From: Paracoccaceae bacterium
Lineage (GTDB): Bacteria > Pseudomonadota > Alphaproteobacteria > Rhodobacterales > Rhodobacteraceae
Direction of reading: 5' to 3'
DNA: 12,181 bases
Assembly (NCBI GenBank): GCA_003561595.1
Contig: PWWF01000089.1
Location: 1 to 12,181, forward strand
Shown: positions 1-9,497 of the stretch, piece by piece
Layout: each line of letters starts with the position of its first letter
Numbering within the stretch: the first letter of the stretch is position 1
The notes under the pieces: generated by a model
Seen by the model: the letters and a program-made list of their open reading frames with translations, nothing else
Told to the model about the DNA's origin: nothing
Database searches by the model: none
Translations under genes and position numbers: made by a program

Positions 1-1592
1 AGCCATTCCAGCGTGCCATGCGCGCCGATATGGACCAGCAGATCGGCCTGCGCGCGCAGCCAGAGGTAGAAGGCGACATAGGCATGGCGCGGGGTGCGTC
101 CCAGATCGTGGTATTCATCGGCGCGCAGCGCAGGCGTGCCGCGTTCGGGTTGCAGCGCGACCAGCGTGTCGCCCAGACGCGTGGCCGCGAATTGCAGAGC
201 GGTGCCGTCACAGGCGGGGTCATCCTCGGGCGCGCCCCAGACCTGTGCCAGATCATCCTGCAGGCGTTGCGGCAGCGTCGCAAGCGCGGCCCTGTAATCG
301 GCAAGCGGCCAGCTCAGACGCGCGCTTGCAAGACTGTCTGTCAGGGGGCGGTCGGGCGCGGGCGCATCCATCATCTGCAGGATTTCAGAGGCGCTGGCCA
401 CGGCATCAAGGCCCACGGCATGCGCCATGTTCCACGCCTTGCCCGGATAGGTCGAAAGCACCAGCGCCGCGCGGCTTGGCCCTTGCCGCAGCCCCACCCA
501 GGCCGCAACGCGCTCCGCGATGGCCGCGATCCGGTCCGGTTCGGCCCGGTGGGCGGCGCGGGCGAATTGCAGATCGGGGTCGGGGTCGCTGAATTCCTTG
601 AAACTGGCCACGCCCGCGAAGATGCGGCCATCAACCTCGGGCAGGACCACATGCATGGCCAGATCGGCAGGCGACAAACCACGTTCAGCCCCGGCCCAGC
701 GCGCGCGGTCATTGGTGGCAAGCGCCACCTGAAAGACCGGCGCACCGGCCCCTTCCAGCACTGCGCCATCTGCCCCCTGCGCCGAAAAGGCCGTTGCGTT
801 GACCACTGCCGCAGGGCCCAGCGCACGAACCCAGCGCGCCAGCCAGCCGCGCGCATCAGAGGCTTTCAGCGAGGGCGTGAACAGGCCCAGCACATCAAAG
901 CCGCGCGCGTCGAACGCACGGGCGAGCGCGGCAATCGGGTCGAGATCGGCGGCAGTGAGATAAGAGCGATAGAAGGTCAAAAGGATGCGCGGGCGCGTGC
1001 TGTGCATCGCAAAGGCTGCCGGGCACATTACGCCATCGGGTTGCCAGCCCCCCACCTGCGCTACCCCGCGCACCCCGCGCACAGGCGGGGCATAGAGGCC
1101 CGAGGCCAGCGCCATCTGTTGCAGCGCCGCCTGCGCAGCAACCGCGCCACCCAGATCGCACAGATGCTGCAAGTGGCGCAGGGTGCTGACCGGCAGGGTC
1201 GAGGCCGCATCCAGCGCAGGGTCGGGCCGCCCGTCGGCGGGCAGAACCGCCAGCGCCAGACCAGTGTCGCGCGCCAGCCGCTGCACCTGCGCCAATCCGT
1301 ATTCCCAGTAGGCCGCGCCACCGATCAGCCGGATCAGCACGCCCTTGGCACCTGCGAGCGTGTTTTCAATATAGGTATCAACCGACAGAGGATGTTTCAG
1401 CGCCGCGAGATTTGCCAGGCGTAAGGTGGGTAATTTACCCACCCTACCCGCGCCATCCGTCCACCCCGCCGCGAAAGCCCCCAGATCACTGTCGGAAAAG
1501 GACAGCACGACCAGATCCGCCGGGCTCTGGCCCAGATCGGTCGGGGTGTCGGCCTCTTCCAGACCGTGGCTTTCGCGAAAGATGACGTGCAT
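1..1592 (-). CDS. cobN: Cobaltochelatase subunit CobN (N-terminal part, runs off the window)
   Basis: CobN is the large subunit of the ATP-dependent CobN-CobS-CobT cobaltochelatase, which inserts Co2+ into hydrogenobyrinic acid a,c-diamide in the aerobic B12 pathway. The minus-strand frame starting at ATG 1592 (MHVIFRESHG) is open for 530 codons to the window edge. It contains the N-terminal CobN stretch RPRILLTFYRSYLTAADLD and ends in VHIGAHGTLEW (residues 520-530), the HxGxHG signature shared with the magnesium chelatase H subunit. Full-length CobN is about 1,100-1,300 residues, so the C-terminal half or more lies beyond position 1. The start is 6 nt after the cobW stop and has only a G-rich ribosome-binding stretch, so translation is probably coupled to cobW. 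No frameshift is seen. The long plus-strand ORF over the same bases is an antisense shadow. Confidence 0.95.
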   Translation of the reverse strand, partial: MHVIFRESHGLEEADTPTDLGQSPADLVVLSFSDSDLGAFAAGWTDGAGRVGKLPTLRLANLAALKHPLSVDTYIENTLAGAKGVLIRLIGGAAYWEYGLAQVQRLARDTGLALAVLPADGRPDPALDAASTLPVSTLRHLQHLCDLGGAVAAQAALQQMALASGLYAPPVRGVRGVAQVGGWQPDGVMCPAAFAMHSTRPRILLTFYRSYLTAADLDPIAALARAFDARGFDVLGLFTPSLKASDARGWLARWVRALGPAAVVNATAFSAQGADGAVLEGAGAPVFQVALATNDRARWAGAERGLSPADLAMHVVLPEVDGRIFAGVASFKEFSDPDPDLQFARAAHRAEPDRIAAIAERVAAWVGLRQGPSRAALVLSTYPGKAWNMAHAVGLDAVASASEILQMMDAPAPDRPLTDSLASARLSWPLADYRAALATLPQRLQDDLAQVWGAPEDDPACDGTALQFAATRLGDTLVALQPERGTPALRADEYHDLGRTPRHAYVAFYLWLRAQADLLVHIGAHGTLEW

Positions 1593-1598
1593 TGCGGA

Positions 1599-2636
1599 TC
1601 AGGCCCCCAGAGCCTCGCGGATGGTGGCCTCGTTCACATGGTCATGCTCGGCGATCACGACCAGCCGGGTGCGGCGCTGCTCGGACGCCGCCCACGGGCG
1701 GTCGAACTGGTGGCGCACCCGCGCCCCCACGGCCTGCACCAGCAGGCGCATCGGCTTGCCCGCAACCGCCGCATAGCCCTTGACCCGCAGGATATGCTGC
1801 TCCTCGGCCAGAGCGGCGATGCGCGCAGCCAGATCGGCCGGATCAGTGATCTCGCCCATCTCGACCATGATCGTGTCGAAATCGTCATGCTCGTGATCGT
1901 GATGGCCGTCATGGTGACTGGGCCGTGCGGCCAGATCATCCTCGGCCCCGGCCTCCAGCCCCAGCAGCACTGCGGGATCGACCACGCCCTCGGCAACCTC
2001 GACCACTGGCAGCGGACGCGGGGCTTCGGCCGCGATGACCTCGCGCGCACGGGCCAGCCCACCCGGACCTGCCAGATCCGGCTTGGTCAGCAGCACCAGA
2101 TCGGCGCAGGCGATCTGATCCTCGAACACTTCGGACAGCGGTGTCTCATGATCGATGCTGTCATCGGCGGCGCGCTGGGCGTCGACGGCAGCAATGTCCG
2201 GGGCGAAGCGCCCCGCCGCCACGGCCTCTGCATCGGCCAGCGCGATGACGCCATCCACAGTGATGCGCGACCGGATGGCGGGCCAATCAAAAGCCTTGAG
2301 CAAAGGCTTGGGCAGGGCCAGCCCCGATGTCTCGATCAGGATGTGATCGGGGCGCGGGTCGAGCTTGAGAAGCGCCTCGACCGTGGGGATGAAATCATCA
2401 GCGACGGTGCAGCAGATGCAGCCATTCGACAGCTCGACGATATTCTCGGCGGGGCAATCAGGGATGGCGCAGGATTTCAGGATCTCGCCATCCACGCCGA
2501 CCGTGCCGAACTCATTGACGACAACGGCCAGCCGCCGCCCGCCCGCATTGCGGATCAGATGCGAAATCAGCGTGGTCTTGCCCGCGCCCAGAAAGCCGGT
2601 GACGATGGTGACGGGGGTTTTCGACAGATCAGACAT
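1599..2636 (-). CDS. cobW: CobW, G3E-family GTPase and likely cobalt metallochaperone
   Basis: This 345-residue protein has the COG0523/CobW layout. The Walker A motif is GFLGAGKTT (residues 14-22), followed by NEFG (41-44), the metal-binding CxCC motif CICC (73-76), ETSG (102-105) and the guanine-specificity motif TKPD (184-187). A histidine/aspartate-rich linker follows at about 241-250 (HHDGHHDHEH), then a C-terminal CobW_C domain. The family is thought to bind Co2+ with GTP and hand it to CobN-containing chelatase; the position directly before cobN fits. I chose ATG 2636 (MSDLSKTP) over an upstream in-frame start because GGAGG lies about 8 nt before it. This start overlaps the end of the DUF1636 gene by 8 bp, suggesting coupled translation. 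B12 control comes from the riboswitch upstream of the operon. Confidence 0.95.
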   Translation of the reverse strand: MSDLSKTPVTIVTGFLGAGKTTLISHLIRNAGGRRLAVVVNEFGTVGVDGEILKSCAIPDCPAENIVELSNGCICCTVADDFIPTVEALLKLDPRPDHILIETSGLALPKPLLKAFDWPAIRSRITVDGVIALADAEAVAAGRFAPDIAAVDAQRAADDSIDHETPLSEVFEDQIACADLVLLTKPDLAGPGGLARAREVIAAEAPRPLPVVEVAEGVVDPAVLLGLEAGAEDDLAARPSHHDGHHDHEHDDFDTIMVEMGEITDPADLAARIAALAEEQHILRVKGYAAVAGKPMRLLVQAVGARVRHQFDRPWAASEQRRTRLVVIAEHDHVNEATIREALGA

Positions 2637-3018
2637 TCGGGGCCTCCAGCGGCGGGATACGAGCGATGCAATTCTTGCGGAAATGTTCGGGGCGTTCGCG
2701 CCAGGGCACAAGCCCGCCCTCGGCGTCACGGTATTTCTGCGCCCCCTCGATGATGGCAGGCAAATGCGCCTCGGGGGTCAGATTGCCATAGACATAAGTC
2801 CAGGCCCCGGGCTTGCGCAGCGCGATGGTGCAGCCGCGCGAGCAGTTGGACAGGCATTCCACCGGGATGATGCGCAGCCCGTCTGGCGCGGCCTGTTGCA
2901 GCCCGGCCGCAAGCACCGCACCCGGTCGCGGATCTTGCTTCTGGTCGGCCAGCGGGTTGGCAGGGATGGCGCTGCGACAGGTGGTGCAGACCAACAGTTC
3001 AGCCGTGCAAAGGGTCAT
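2629..3018 (-). CDS. DUF1636 family thioredoxin-like (2Fe-2S) ferredoxin
   Basis: The 129-residue protein has CTTC at residues 11-14, then ECLSNCSRGC in the middle and FRKNCIARIPPLE near the C-terminus. That cysteine pattern and tail are typical of DUF1636, a family related to thioredoxin-fold [2Fe-2S] ferredoxins and often found beside cobW in B12 clusters. An electron-transfer or metal-handling role in cobalt insertion, or in reduction of Co(II)-corrinoid, is inferred from context and is not proven for the family. The start ATG 3018 has GGAG about 7 nt upstream. The gene overlaps cobW by 8 bp and lies 62 bp below hupE, with a 12-bp GC hairpin in that gap. Confidence 0.88.
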   Translation of the reverse strand: MTLCTAELLVCTTCRSAIPANPLADQKQDPRPGAVLAAGLQQAAPDGLRIIPVECLSNCSRGCTIALRKPGAWTYVYGNLTPEAHLPAIIEGAQKYRDAEGGLVPWRERPEHFRKNCIARIPPLEAPNV

Positions 3019-3080: not shown

Positions 3081-3689
3081 TCAGGCGAGGAACATGGGTT
3101 CGACCGCGTCAAACAGAGACACCAGGCCAACCCCCAGGCAGACTGCAGCGGCCAGCCGGGCCGGCGCGGCATCCCGTTGCATCAGCCGCCCGGCCATGAC
3201 CGCAACCCCCGTCGCTATCGCGAACTGGATGATGCCAAAGCCCAGCAGATAGGCGAAAATCGGCATCGACGTGGACCCGACCACGGCCGCGCCATAGGCC
3301 CAGCCGTGGAACACCCCGGCCAAGGCAACCCCGCCAAAGGCGACCGGACCCGCGACCGTCCGCCCCATGACCAGCACTGCACCGAGCCCGATCACCGACG
3401 CCAGAATGATCCATTCGGCCAACGGCAATGTCATCCCGGCCAGATGCAGCGTCGTCCCCAGAAGCGTCGCGCCGATAAAGACCCCTGGCACCGCCAGAAT
3501 GCGCCCCGACAACGCCGCAGCCAACCCGATCAGCACGATGAAGGCCAGATGATCAAGCCCGATCACCGGGTGCGCAAGCCCCGAGATCAGGCCGTGAAAC
3601 ACGGTCTGCGGGGCCTCGCCACCCGTTGGGTGATGCGCCAGCGCAGGGCTCGCGATGAAAAGGGCGGGAAGAAGAAGAATGCGGTTCAT
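3081..3689 (-). CDS. hupE: HupE/UreJ family transporter, predicted cobalt uptake
   Basis: The 202-residue polytopic membrane protein begins with a probable signal peptide (MNRILLLPALFIASPALA), so the mature N-terminus would start His-His-Pro. The first family motif is HPVIGLDH (residues 40-47) and the second FHGWAYG (127-133). Hydrophobic segments fill the rest, about six helices in all. HupE/UreJ proteins are secondary Ni2+/Co2+ transporters, and members under a B12 riboswitch with cob genes are predicted to carry cobalt. The second motif departs from the His-rich FHGHAHGxE form: Trp and Tyr replace two histidines and the acidic residue is lost. The start is ATG 3689, 24 nt below the cytochrome gene, with AGGA about 10 nt upstream. 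Substrate is inferred from context, and nickel cannot be excluded. Confidence 0.88.
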   Translation of the reverse strand: MNRILLLPALFIASPALAHHPTGGEAPQTVFHGLISGLAHPVIGLDHLAFIVLIGLAAALSGRILAVPGVFIGATLLGTTLHLAGMTLPLAEWIILASVIGLGAVLVMGRTVAGPVAFGGVALAGVFHGWAYGAAVVGSTSMPIFAYLLGFGIIQFAIATGVAVMAGRLMQRDAAPARLAAAVCLGVGLVSLFDAVEPMFLA

Positions 3690-3713: not shown

Positions 3714-4334
3714 TCAGCGTTGACGGAAATCGGCATGGCAGGCGACGCAGTAGTAGCGCAGATCGTGCAACCCGTTCACCAGATCGCCATCGTCTCGCAC
3801 CGTCTGCGCGAAGCGCGCGGATTCGTCACGGAACGCGGCCGTGTATTGCGAGAACCTCACAGGGTGCGCCCAGATCGCGGGCAGGGCACCGCGAGCGTTG
3901 TCGGGCGCGGGCGAGGCCACCGCGAAGAGCATGTCGATCTCGCGGCCCAGCGCGGCCAGCGCATCGGCATGGGTCTGAGTCATCTCCTCGCCGCCGGCAT
4001 CCGACAGCAGCGTGGCCGATACGGCGCGGAAATGACCGGACATCGCACTCATCGTTCGCCGCCGCCGCTCGGTCAGCCCTTCAGCGGCCGTCTCGAACAC
4101 GGGGGCCTGCGGGTGCCGATCCCCATGCGCGCCGAAAGGCCCGGTCAGCTGTTCGGCCTGATCGGCATCGACATGAGCATGGCCGTGGTCATGCGTGTGA
4201 CCGGCCGCCTCTGGCGCGGCGACTGCACCGAGCGACGGATCAGTCGGCACCGCGAAGGCCACAAGACCGGCGGCCAGCACATAGCCCGTCGCCGCCACAC
4301 CCAGCCCCGCGATCCATTTGCGAGAAGGCTTCAT
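3714..4334 (-). CDS. Histidine-rich periplasmic c-type cytochrome (c'/c556-like)
   Basis: The 206-residue protein starts with a basic N-terminus and one hydrophobic segment (residues 7-29), either a signal peptide or a membrane anchor. A low-complexity His-rich stretch follows (about 45-74, including HTHDHGHAH), then a helical domain (about 85-206). Its only CxxCH is CVACH at 196-200, seven residues from the end. A C-terminal heme site after a helical bundle is the class II (c'/c556) pattern. Met95 or Met98 in RRTMSAMSGHF is a candidate sixth ligand. It is the first gene after the riboswitch and 24 nt before hupE, so it should be made when B12 is low. Its partner is unknown. Metal capture for HupE or a redox role at the membrane are inferences from the His-rich segment and position. 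Confidence 0.78.
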   Translation of the reverse strand: MKPSRKWIAGLGVAATGYVLAAGLVAFAVPTDPSLGAVAAPEAAGHTHDHGHAHVDADQAEQLTGPFGAHGDRHPQAPVFETAAEGLTERRRRTMSAMSGHFRAVSATLLSDAGGEEMTQTHADALAALGREIDMLFAVASPAPDNARGALPAIWAHPVRFSQYTAAFRDESARFAQTVRDDGDLVNGLHDLRYYCVACHADFRQR

Positions 4335-4480
4335 TCAATCTCTTTCCCGCGCGACCACCCGTCACGCGCTGCTGGCGCGGGCAGGTCTGGCAGGGCCGGC
4401 AGGCGCAGGGCGCGATCCGCTTGGGCCCAACCAGAACACCCCGCTGGTTGACATGCCCCCCAAGCAAGGGGGCGGCTTTC
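4335..4480 (-). promoter_or_regulatory. Leader between riboswitch aptamer and first gene (expression platform)
   Basis: This 146-nt stretch joins the aptamer to ATG 4334. Just after the aptamer, GCCCCC (4455-4460) pairs with GGGGGC (4468-4473) around a 7-nt loop. That is the expected place for the loop that docks with the aptamer in B12 riboswitches. No U-tract follows, so translational or Rho-dependent control is more likely than intrinsic termination. The first gene has only a weak ribosome-binding stretch (GGGAAAGAGA). A 75-codon reading frame from TTG 4467 runs through the leader into the cytochrome gene in another frame; I do not call it a gene. Confidence 0.5.
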
Positions 4481-4672
4481 GGTGCTGGCAGGTCTCCCGG
4501 CTTGCGGATCTCCGAGGGGGGCCTCGGGCGGTCTGCCCGCCTTCCCGGCCTGTGCGGGCCAGTGGCGTCGGGCGACCTGTCCGGTCACGGTCGCGGGGGC
4601 GGCTGTGCTTGGGGCTTGATCTTGCGATCCAGCCTTGTCACATTCCCTTTTCACCTGTCATGAACAGGCACC
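4481..4672 (-). promoter_or_regulatory. Cobalamin (B12) riboswitch aptamer
   Basis: Read on the minus strand, the elements of the class appear in order. GGTGC (4672-4668) starts the outer stem, followed by AGGTGAAAAGGGAA, then the core CAGCCGCCCCCGCGACCGTGA. GCCACTGG comes next (4566-4559), then CCGGGAAGGC, and the B12 box AAGCCGGGAGACCTGCC (4503-4487). GCACC (4485-4481) closes the outer stem with the first GGTGC. The aptamer of about 192 nt is within the normal size range. Adenosylcobalamin binding normally turns such operons off, so the cytochrome-hupE-DUF1636-cobW-cobN unit should be expressed when B12 is scarce. Confidence 0.93.
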
Positions 4673-4679
4673 AGCAATA

Positions 4680-4699
4680 GCGTCATGCGGGCATGACGC
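4680..4699. promoter_or_regulatory. Perfect 20-bp palindrome, candidate operator
   Basis: GCGTCATGC (4680-4688) and GCATGACGC (4691-4699) are exact reverse complements around GG. The palindrome lies in the 54-bp gap between the riboswitch 5' end and the cobO start, covering the spacer and -10 of the minus-strand promoter. It has the size and symmetry of a dimeric regulator site. I do not recognise the regulator. It could also act as a hairpin in the cobO leader. Confidence 0.55.
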
Positions 4700-7072: not shown

Positions 7073-7126
7073 GCGTGCTTGCCAAGTGCCGCAGGCGGGC
7101 CATCTTGTCGCGCAAGGAGAGTGCAG

Positions 7127-8239
7127 ATGGTCAATGCCCCGGCAACACCGACAGGACAGGCGCGCGATCTGCTGATGGCGGGCTGGCAGGCGCAAACAGA
7201 TGGGGGCTTGCGCGCAAGCTGGATGCTGCATGGCCGCCCCGGCATCGGCAAGACCGAGATCGTGCAGGACATGGCGCAGCGGATCGGCGCGCGGCTGTTC
7301 GATCTGCGCCTGACCACGATCGAGCCGCAGGACCTGCGTGGCCTGCCCTTTTTCGACATGGACGCGCAGCGCACGGTCTGGTTCCGCCCCGAGGATCTGC
7401 CCGATGACCCGGCCACCCCGTCGATCCTGTTTCTGGATGAGTTGACCGCCGCGCCGCCCCAGTTGCAGCCCACGGTCTACGGGCTGCTGCAGGAACGCCG
7501 GGTCGGGCGCCATATGCTGCCCGATAGCTGCTTTGTCGTGGCCGCCGGTAACATGGTCGAGGATGGCGCCATCGCCTATGAGATGGGCACGGCCCTGTCC
7601 GACAGGCTGATCCATCTGCGCCTGACCGCCACGGCGGATGACTGGTTGCAGAACTACGCCCTGCCGCAGGGGCTGGACCCTGCCGTGATCGCGTTTATCC
7701 GCACGCGCCCCGAATGCCTCGACACCACGGAAGAGGCGCTGCGCGCGGGCGAGATGATCGCCTGCACGCCCCGGTCCTGGGCGCGGGTGTCGGCGCTGAT
7801 GCGGGCGATTGCGGATCGGGGGCTGCGCAACACCGCCATCGCCGGGGTGCTGGGCGAGGCCGTGGCCGCCGAGTTCCGCCTGATCGCCGAGGATATTGCC
7901 GCCAGCGTGCATCTCGATGCACTGCTGGAGGCGAAATCGGGCAACCGGCTGGCGCTTTACCCGACCTCGCTGCACGGGCTGACGGCGCTGGTCTATGCGC
8001 TGATCACCCGCGCGGACGCGGCCCGGCTGCCCGCGATCATCGAGATCATGGCCGAACTGCGCGAATTGGGCACGCTGCGCGGCGCGCCCTTCAGTGCAAT
8101 GCCCTTGGCGGAACTGGGCACGCATGGGTTCGAGCTGCTGATTGCGCGCGCGTTGGAGCAGGGCTGGCAAGAGGCGTTTCTGAACTCGCCCGCCTATGCG
8201 GCCTATATGGCCGAGCGCGAGGCGGCGGGGCTTGGCTGA
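7127..8239 (+). CDS. MoxR-like AAA+ ATPase
   Basis: The 370-residue AAA+ protein has Walker A GRPGIGKT (residues 36-43), Walker B ILFLDE (100-105), sensor 1 AAGN with Asn142, and SDRL with Arg160 as the likely arginine finger, then a helical C-terminal region. These features place it in the MoxR/AAA_5 group, whose members remodel or load metals into partner proteins together with a VWA protein. AAGGAGA lies 7 nt before ATG 7127, which settles the start over an upstream in-frame ATG at 7079. The partner VWA gene follows with an 8-bp overlap. Because it sits behind cobQ, it may be confused with CobS. CobS pairs with an acidic-linker CobT, not with a DUF2201 protein, so I do not use that name. 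Confidence 0.88.
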   Translation: MVNAPATPTGQARDLLMAGWQAQTDGGLRASWMLHGRPGIGKTEIVQDMAQRIGARLFDLRLTTIEPQDLRGLPFFDMDAQRTVWFRPEDLPDDPATPSILFLDELTAAPPQLQPTVYGLLQERRVGRHMLPDSCFVVAAGNMVEDGAIAYEMGTALSDRLIHLRLTATADDWLQNYALPQGLDPAVIAFIRTRPECLDTTEEALRAGEMIACTPRSWARVSALMRAIADRGLRNTAIAGVLGEAVAAEFRLIAEDIAASVHLDALLEAKSGNRLALYPTSLHGLTALVYALITRADAARLPAIIEIMAELRELGTLRGAPFSAMPLAELGTHGFELLIARALEQGWQEAFLNSPAYAAYMAEREAAGLG

Positions 8240-9497
8240 GCCCCGCCATTCCGCGCGCGCCAGCCCCGCGCTGCAGGCATTGACCGAATGCGACCCGGCG
8301 CTGGCGACGCTGGCGCTGTGGTGTCGGCATCGCGACAGCGCCGAGGTCGAACTGGCCGAGACGCGCGGCACCGAAATCCTGTATGGCGCGGGGTTCGAGG
8401 CGCTGCCGCTGCATCAGCAGATCGGGGTGGCGGGGCATCACATCCTGCATGTGGCCTTGCAGCATTCCGCGCGAATGGAGGCGATGGCCACGCGGCTGGG
8501 CCCCGGTTTCTCGCCCGAATTCTGGCAGATCGCCTGCGATGCGATTGTGAATGAAACGATCCTGCGCGCGGGCCATGCCCTACCCCGCCCGGTGCTACGC
8601 CTCTCCGGTCTGATGCGCACGATCGGCGCGCCGGACGACAGTGACGGGCTGCTCTCGCAATGGGATGCAGAGCAATTGTATCACAAGGTATTGCGCGTGG
8701 GCGGTGGCGGCGGGGGTGAGGGCGCGCGTAGCGCCGTGCTCGCCTATGCCGAGGCGCAGCGCTTTCGCCCCGACCTGTCCCCCGGCCAGAACGAGGGCGA
8801 GGACGCAGAGGGCGACACGCGGCTGGATGCGGCCGATTGGCGCGGGCATCTGACGCGCGCGATGGCCGCAGGGCGTGCCGCTGGCGTGGGGCTGGGGGCG
8901 CTTGGCGCGCCGCTGGGCGATCTGCCCCGCCCGCAGGTGCCGTGGGAACTGGTCCTGCGCCGCTTGTTGCTGAACGCGACCCTGCCGCGCCATGCCCCCA
9001 ATCCGGGCCGACCCGCTCGGCGCTGGCTGGCGCAGGCGGGCCATGCCTTGCAGACGGGCGCAGAGCTGCCGCCCTGGCAGCCGCGCCAGATGGCACCGGT
9101 GCAGCAACCGCGTCTGGTGGTGGCGCTGGACAGTTCAGGCTCGATCCCGCCGGTTACCCTGCGCCTGTTTCTGGCAGAGATTACCGGGATCGTGCGGCGC
9201 ATGTCGGCAGAGTTGCGCTTGATCGTGTTTGACGAAGATATCCGGTCCGAAACACCCCTGAACAGCGCGACCATCCGGCGCACCCTGTCAGAACTGGCTC
9301 TGCCCGAAGGCGGTGGCACAGATTTTCGCCCGGCGCTGGCGCGGGCGGCGCAACTGCGCCCGGCCGCTCTGGTGGTGCTGACCGATATGGACGGCCCGAT
9401 GGGTGCGGCACCGCGCGGGCTGCGCGTCATCTGGGCCTGTCCGGCCGCCGAGCCCCCGCGCGCGCCCTTTGGGCATGTCCTGTCACTCGCCCGCTGA
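8232..9497 (+). CDS. DUF2201/VWA-like protein, partner of the AAA+ ATPase
   Basis: The protein is about 421 residues. The N-terminal third matches the putative metallopeptidase domain of DUF2201 proteins (AGHHILHVALQHSARM, then FWQIACDAIVNETI). A Gly/acid-rich linker follows, and then a C-terminal VWA-like domain with a complete MIDAS: DSSGS, GGGTDF and LTDMDG. Residues 69-73 read HHILH where HExxH is expected, so the catalytic glutamate is replaced by histidine and peptidase activity is doubtful. TTG 8232 is the likely start: it follows a G-rich ribosome site and overlaps the AAA+ gene stop by 8 bp, while the ATG at 8196 would overlap it by 44 bp. The last 15 bp overlap the convergent membrane-protein gene. 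Confidence 0.82.
   Translation: MAEPRHSARASPALQALTECDPALATLALWCRHRDSAEVELAETRGTEILYGAGFEALPLHQQIGVAGHHILHVALQHSARMEAMATRLGPGFSPEFWQIACDAIVNETILRAGHALPRPVLRLSGLMRTIGAPDDSDGLLSQWDAEQLYHKVLRVGGGGGGEGARSAVLAYAEAQRFRPDLSPGQNEGEDAEGDTRLDAADWRGHLTRAMAAGRAAGVGLGALGAPLGDLPRPQVPWELVLRRLLLNATLPRHAPNPGRPARRWLAQAGHALQTGAELPPWQPRQMAPVQQPRLVVALDSSGSIPPVTLRLFLAEITGIVRRMSAELRLIVFDEDIRSETPLNSATIRRTLSELALPEGGGTDFRPALARAAQLRPAALVVLTDMDGPMGAAPRGLRVIWACPAAEPPRAPFGHVLSLAR

Follow-up and report, generated by a model that had tools for sequence, protein, structure and literature searches.

HupE/UreJ permeases with an HPxxGxDH motif, encoded behind a cobalamin riboswitch, represent the B12-controlled HupE importers of proteobacteria and cyanobacteria. 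How HupE/UreJ permeases discriminate cobalt from nickel and how they gather metal at trace levels is, to our knowledge, an open question. Under B12 control there is also CbtB, a small membrane protein with a histidine-rich end that stands beside a multi-helix transporter. Cobalt import by HupE is reported for Synechocystis in the available text of a review (PMC7689651). HupE/UreJ-2 permeases with fused periplasmic metal-capture domains, the anglerases Ang-1 and Ang-2, are described in the available sections of another paper (PMC12537917). The accessible text of PMC2667541 treats HupE/UreJ and the predicted cobalt transporters CbtAB, CbtC-G and CbtX, and the word 'cytochrome' is absent from it. 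As far as the available text of PMC5317091 goes, the riboswitch precedes cobalamin transport genes and no cytochrome is named with it. In the literature searched, most subscription papers lying outside its scope, we came across no account of a cytochrome in a cobalt operon under B12 control.

We analyzed a window (the whole stretch of DNA under study, 12,181 nucleotides from a Paracoccaceae bacterium) that carries the same combination of cobalamin riboswitch and HPxxGxDH permease. In contrast to 13 riboswitch-hupE loci sampled in other genera, a class II c-type cytochrome gene intervenes between the two. The arrangement suggests, without proving, that a heme protein helps cobalt to enter the cell.

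Layout of the operon and possible other routes for cobalt

The initial annotation of this DNA had described a frame of 206 residues with a single C-terminal CVACH and the histidine cluster HTHDHGHAH. The frame is present at exactly 3714-4334 of the minus strand, with all of these parts. Its surroundings had also been read correctly, because matches to RF00174 and PF04955 place the gene between a cobalamin riboswitch, 135 nt upstream of the cytochrome ATG, and hupE, whose start follows the cytochrome stop after 24 nt (Table 1). Further downstream, the DUF1636 and cobW genes overlap by a few bases and the gap between cobW and cobN is 6 nt, from which we infer that the operon is likely read as a single transcript.

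Table 1. Features of the cobalt operon, its neighbors and the encoded cytochrome (positions in the window)
Feature	Position	Strand	Basis
cobN, N-terminal (5') part, runs off the contig	3..1592	-	PF02514, E 2e-64; NF008973 partial, below its cut-off
cobW	1599..2636	-	TIGR02475, 533.8 bits (cut-off 332.1)
DUF1636 protein	2629..3018	-	PF07845, 6.1e-35
hupE, HupE/UreJ permease, predicted Co2+ importer	3081..3689	-	PF04955, E 8.5e-34, 117 bits (cut-off 23); HPVIGLDH (HPxxGxDH motif)
Class II (cytochrome c'-fold) c-type cytochrome with N-terminal His cluster, 206 aa, ATG start	3714..4334	-	
Four-helix cytochrome domain (predicted), residues 83-206	3717..4088	-	pLDDT 89-98 per 10-residue block; Foldseek to cytochrome c', E 4.9e-06
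Heme attachment motif CVACH, residues 196-200 of 206	3735..3749	-	Invariant in 10/10 copies; sole CxxCH
Met95, aligned with distal heme residue Leu16 of Alcaligenes cytochrome c'	4050..4052	-	Pairwise alignment
Conserved linker LTGPFGAHGDRHP region, residues 61-82, predicted beta-hairpin	4089..4154	-	Alignment; model strands 62-65 and 68-71
His cluster HTHDHGHAH, residues 46-54, candidate metal site	4173..4199	-	Alternating-His cluster in 10/10 copies
Hydrophobic N-terminal segment, residues 8-29, predicted signal peptide or membrane anchor, A-F-A near its end	4248..4313	-	Best 19-residue hydropathy 2.03
Cobalamin riboswitch aptamer, operon leader	4470..4690	-	RF00174, 86.7 bits (gathering score 31.5), model 1-189 of 189, not cut off
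cobO	from 4727	+	
cobQ	from 5564	+	

We know of no described role for DUF1636 in a cobalt operon; in the genus its gene lies between the riboswitch and cobW whether hupE is present or absent. Immediately 3' of cobQ, at 7079-9497 on the plus strand, a MoxR-type AAA ATPase is encoded, followed by a DUF2201 VWA protein. We take this pair to resemble chelatase-type ATPase/VWA partners, and it could have a tie to cobalt chelation. Roseinatronobacter thiooxidans ALG1, a strain that has the cytochrome-hupE pair, shows a second cobalamin riboswitch match some 3.5 kb upstream (locus L020, 1-145, plus strand), truncated by the end of the locus.

The HupE of the window (3689-3081, minus strand) and those of all 18 loci examined from other genera of the family (L053-L070) carry His-His-Pro where a signal peptide would end, which, judged by sequence, is a possible N-terminal metal site. 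In one hupE ortholog of the genus (G012) the permease motif reads HPVIGLEH, and PF04955 is still matched.

HupE need not be the only cobalt route of this organism, since its genome also encodes a CbiM-CbiQ-ABC ATPase locus (L139, contig G000:C12, 39-3415), which may be an ECF importer for nickel or cobalt. Two ORFs upstream of the CbiM, CbiQ and ATPase genes gave no Pfam match. A B12-box pattern found no matches above chance in this locus, a weak test given that the contig ends 38 bases upstream of the first listed ORF of the locus. CbiM occurs in 21 of 37 genomes of the genus, with and without hupE, so that no clean pattern of replacement emerges. CbtA (PF09490) was considered as a substitute in the members lacking hupE and was rejected, as it is found in none of the 37 genomes, the organism's own included. 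The locus differs from CbtAB in that the partner is HupE and the histidine-rich protein is a cytochrome.

The cytochrome and the constraint on its gene

The protein begins with the hydrophobic segment that would send it to the periplasm. An A-x-A stands at the same place in eight of the ten intact copies known from the genus, and a hypothetical cut after A-F-A would leave Val29 and not a histidine as the first residue. The linker that follows the histidine cluster is modeled with pLDDT values of 88 (residues 61-70) and 81 (residues 71-80). A profile built from residues 56-95 and run on the loci collected up to that stage matched only this cytochrome and its fused or decayed copies.

The C-terminal domain belongs to the class II cytochromes c. 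Pfam Cytochrom_C_2 (PF01322) covers residues 89-204 (49.6 bits with the cut-off at 26.5, E 9.8e-13) and is matched in all ten intact copies, the window's included; the NCBIfam search of the protein gave no model above cut-off. In a wider alignment of 30 class II sequences, the heme cysteine pair and histidine, Arg91 and Trp155 are present in every sequence, and Met is found at position 95 in 26, among them all ten copies. Structure prediction from an alignment of the ten copies gave a poor pLDDT of 50.1, which rose to 81.8 with 30 sequences; one sequence (L052) was excluded from alignment A2 for a spurious N-terminal extension. The modeled domain has the predicted fold of cytochrome c'. With the class II cytochromes (c', c-556, PF01322) the protein thus has in common the predicted four-helix fold, the C-terminal CxxCH, Arg91 and Trp155, whereas the histidine cluster and the predicted beta-hairpin linker before the domain are extra, as is the setting in a B12-riboswitch hupE operon.

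The label 'c'-type' given in the initial annotation agrees with the predicted fold. A five-coordinate, high-spin heme, as in c', and a six-coordinate, low-spin His/Met heme, as in c-556, are both compatible with a sequence in which Met95 aligns with the distal site. In cytochrome c-556 a first-helix Met at the corresponding position is a heme ligand, and the cytochrome c' of Rhodospirillum molischianum has an unbound Met at that same position. The best fold matches of the predicted structure are NO-binding cytochromes c', and cobalamin itself binds NO. One could therefore imagine a c'-type heme, made at low cobalamin, that shields HupE or the cobalt pathway from NO or oxygen. We regard such protection as very improbable: Met95 is a potential heme ligand and in that case would interfere with NO binding, and neither the histidine tail nor the position of the gene before hupE would be explained.

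The gene is under constraint. Identity to the window's protein is 70-81% in the other nine intact copies, and the median pairwise dN/dS is about 0.14 (NG86, 45 pairs), a rough value as the median dS of 1.3 is near saturation. Low dN/dS and ten intact copies led us to reject a chance open frame. One copy (G009) has an apparent TTG start behind GGAGG. CVACH and an alternating-histidine cluster of three to nine histidines are found in all ten copies; H50, H52 and H54 are invariant in their alignment while the tail sequence around the cluster drifts. A cluster that is kept throughout while its exact sequence drifts is as expected of a metal-binding tail. By its sequence, the metal could be cobalt, or nickel, copper or zinc.

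Conservation also extends to the heme motif. It is kept in all ten intact copies, and a functional heme-free form was not seen: in G023, which has a hupE ortholog, the cytochrome is decayed, its CVACH eroded like other parts of the gene, and a clear start is not seen. These observations would fit a partner of the cobalt reductase type, whose heme would either supply HupE with free Co2+ by reducing cobalt(III) or cobalt complexes in the periplasm, or poise the histidine-bound metal. We nevertheless find this unlikely, because no electron donor gene is among the identified operon genes, cobalt outside cells is usually Co2+ already, and no precedent was found in the literature searched. It likewise strikes us as improbable that a B12-repressed periplasmic cytochrome binds Co2+ through its histidine tail with the heme setting the redox state of the metal or its release to HupE; if true, such a heme protein would be a redox-active metallochaperone for cobalt.

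Co-occurrence of cytochrome and hupE in the genus

We searched 36 genomes of the (Roseinatronobacter-like) genus for the cytochrome, and 37, with G060 added, for HupE, DUF1636, CbiM and CbtA. Twelve of the 36 contain a cytochrome match, ten intact and two broken, and a riboswitch lies just upstream in all 12 cytochrome loci (L014, L016, L017 and L018 were left out of the Rfam scan, being on the same contigs as L003, L008, L010 and L006). Behind each of the ten intact genes hupE follows after 19-28 nt. True orthologs are thus not scattered but tied to both elements, and the link that the initial annotation had proposed from a single locus holds for every intact copy found in the genus.

The hupE ortholog itself (E < 1e-70) is present in 12 of the 37 genomes, ten of which have an intact cytochrome. 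The others are G023, with its decayed copy, and G006, where riboswitch and hupE are kept and the cytochrome is deleted. As hupE is found without an intact cytochrome in two of 12 genomes, the cytochrome is not an essential part of the transporter. Conversely, none of the 24 genomes without a hupE ortholog, among the 36 examined, has an intact cytochrome. Nine weaker HupE/UreJ matches also occur in the genus; all nine loci tested lie near a 5' ureB RNA, and these permeases are presumably linked to urease.

A strong DUF1636 match without a hupE ortholog was found in nine genomes. Two of these carry relics of the cytochrome, a fusion in G020 and an N-terminal relic in G031, showing that cytochrome and hupE were both lost there; no relic was found in the other seven (relic scan including G034, L101). 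In the G020 fusion (L012, minus strand, 1818 to about 1501) the last part of hupE follows in frame on the cytochrome's N-terminal half. It is the scar of a deletion that took most of the cytochrome and of hupE. In all eight of the nine genomes that were scanned (G034 left out), a riboswitch precedes DUF1636, and the interval contains neither a full hupE nor a full cytochrome.

Cytochrome and hupE hence act as a cassette between the riboswitch and DUF1636. Among the genus genomes examined, the cassette is missing either as a whole or minus the cytochrome alone, and an intact cytochrome was never seen without hupE, so the dependence looks one-sided. A hupE cassette inherited as a unit would stay linked regardless, and linkage alone is therefore no proof of function.

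On a CobW tree the cassette is scattered and found in both deep branches of the genus. The presence label is not more clustered than after shuffling (7 changes against a shuffled mean of 7.1), and the tree favors neither an ancestral cassette with many losses nor one that was passed around. G027 and G006 are sisters in this tree (support 99/96). Many genomes of the genus are drafts, which makes single absences unsure.

Search outside the genus and a possible role in cobalt import

We extended the search to 295 genomes of the family (294 genera), 385 of the class and 398 of the phylum, plus plasmids. Outside the genus, only distant PF01322 domains were found, in 11 family, ten class, one phylum and no plasmid records, with at most ten, eight and seven first-look candidates scored per genome of the family, class and phylum, so that a poorly ranked relative could be hidden. 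None of the 21 records tested out of these 22 (L136 left out) has a riboswitch beside it in the fetched flanks. The best and longest class match, from another alphaproteobacterial family (L105, 1375-1932, plus strand; E 2.1e-15, residues 62-202), is a class II cytochrome without the histidine cluster that adjoins a GTP cyclohydrolase I gene, not hupE; a GPWG motif before its domain resembles the GPFG of the linker described here.

The permease is more widely spread. hupE was matched in 45 of the 295 family genomes, the genus itself included. A locus was obtained for 30 of the 45, and riboswitch and partner were checked in the 18 best of other genera (E 3.6e-40 to 5.5e-20; L053-L070). Ten of the 18 have a riboswitch, and none has a CxxCH or histidine-rich ORF just before hupE. 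In the class, hupE was matched in 23 of 385 genomes; a riboswitch was found at three of 20 newly fetched loci (of 21, L135 left out), and a motif scan found no class II cytochrome partner at any of the 21. L122, one of the class loci, does have a CxxCH frame; it looks unrelated and sits at the outermost part of the locus, over 1 kb away from hupE. Taken together, none of 13 riboswitch-hupE loci of other genera has a cytochrome between the two. Among the genomes sampled the cytochrome is found in one genus only, and a broad occurrence of the association among cobalt operons was rejected as far as family, class, phylum and plasmids were sampled.

This narrow distribution bears on the main rival explanation, namely that an ordinary class II cytochrome of the c-556 or c' type was inserted behind the riboswitch as a passenger with an electron-transfer job of its own, its histidine tail being incidental or serving general metal buffering. 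Class II cytochromes are commonly stand-alone electron carriers, and a passenger might well be confined to one genus, be absent from the 13 riboswitch-linked hupE loci of other genera and be lost or decayed in two of 12 hupE genomes. On the other hand, in none of the 36 genus genomes does an intact cytochrome stand away from hupE. The histidine cluster and linker are missing from the 20 other aligned class II sequences, where the linker profile gave no match, and the organism already encodes a second, stand-alone PF01322 cytochrome that has no histidine cluster. We consider a passenger somewhat unlikely.

We give an even chance to a periplasmic class II cytochrome c that is an accessory of HupE cobalt import, its histidine tail capturing Co2+. 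Of the suggestion made in the initial annotation, an accessory of cobalt uptake, the link to a B12-controlled hupE is supported, though weakened by the occurrence in one genus and by the two of 12 genomes in which hupE persists without an intact cytochrome. In such an accessory role, scarce cobalamin would let the riboswitch permit expression of the operon. The cytochrome would be exported, supplied with heme by the Ccm system (CcmH, of this heme attachment system, is encoded in the genome) and placed on the periplasmic side of the inner membrane. There its flexible tail might take up Co2+ and enrich it at the mouth of HupE, and CobW and CobN would use the imported cobalt to make B12. As for the heme domain, it may be a scaffold for docking and folding, or keep the bound metal in a reduced state.

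As far as the available text of PMC12537917 describes them, the anglerases Ang-1 and Ang-2 are alike in having a periplasmic metal-binding module whose proposed task is metal capture on behalf of a HupE-type permease. However, the module and permease of the window are separate ORFs with a gap of 24 nt, whereas anglerase is fused to HupE/UreJ-2 in one protein. The partner is a PF04955 HupE here and a PF13795 HupE/UreJ-2 in that paper, and where anglerase has an N-terminal histidine, first after the signal peptide, the protein of the window has its histidine cluster in a low-confidence, probably flexible tail and carries a heme motif.

With a separate periplasmic partner in the same operon, open to deletion while the permease stays intact, metal selectivity and metal collection by HupE would become testable. 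Relatives with and without the cytochrome on the same riboswitch-hupE operon, such as the sisters G027 and G006, provide a natural comparison. If the heme matters, the cobalt pathway would gain a cytochrome.
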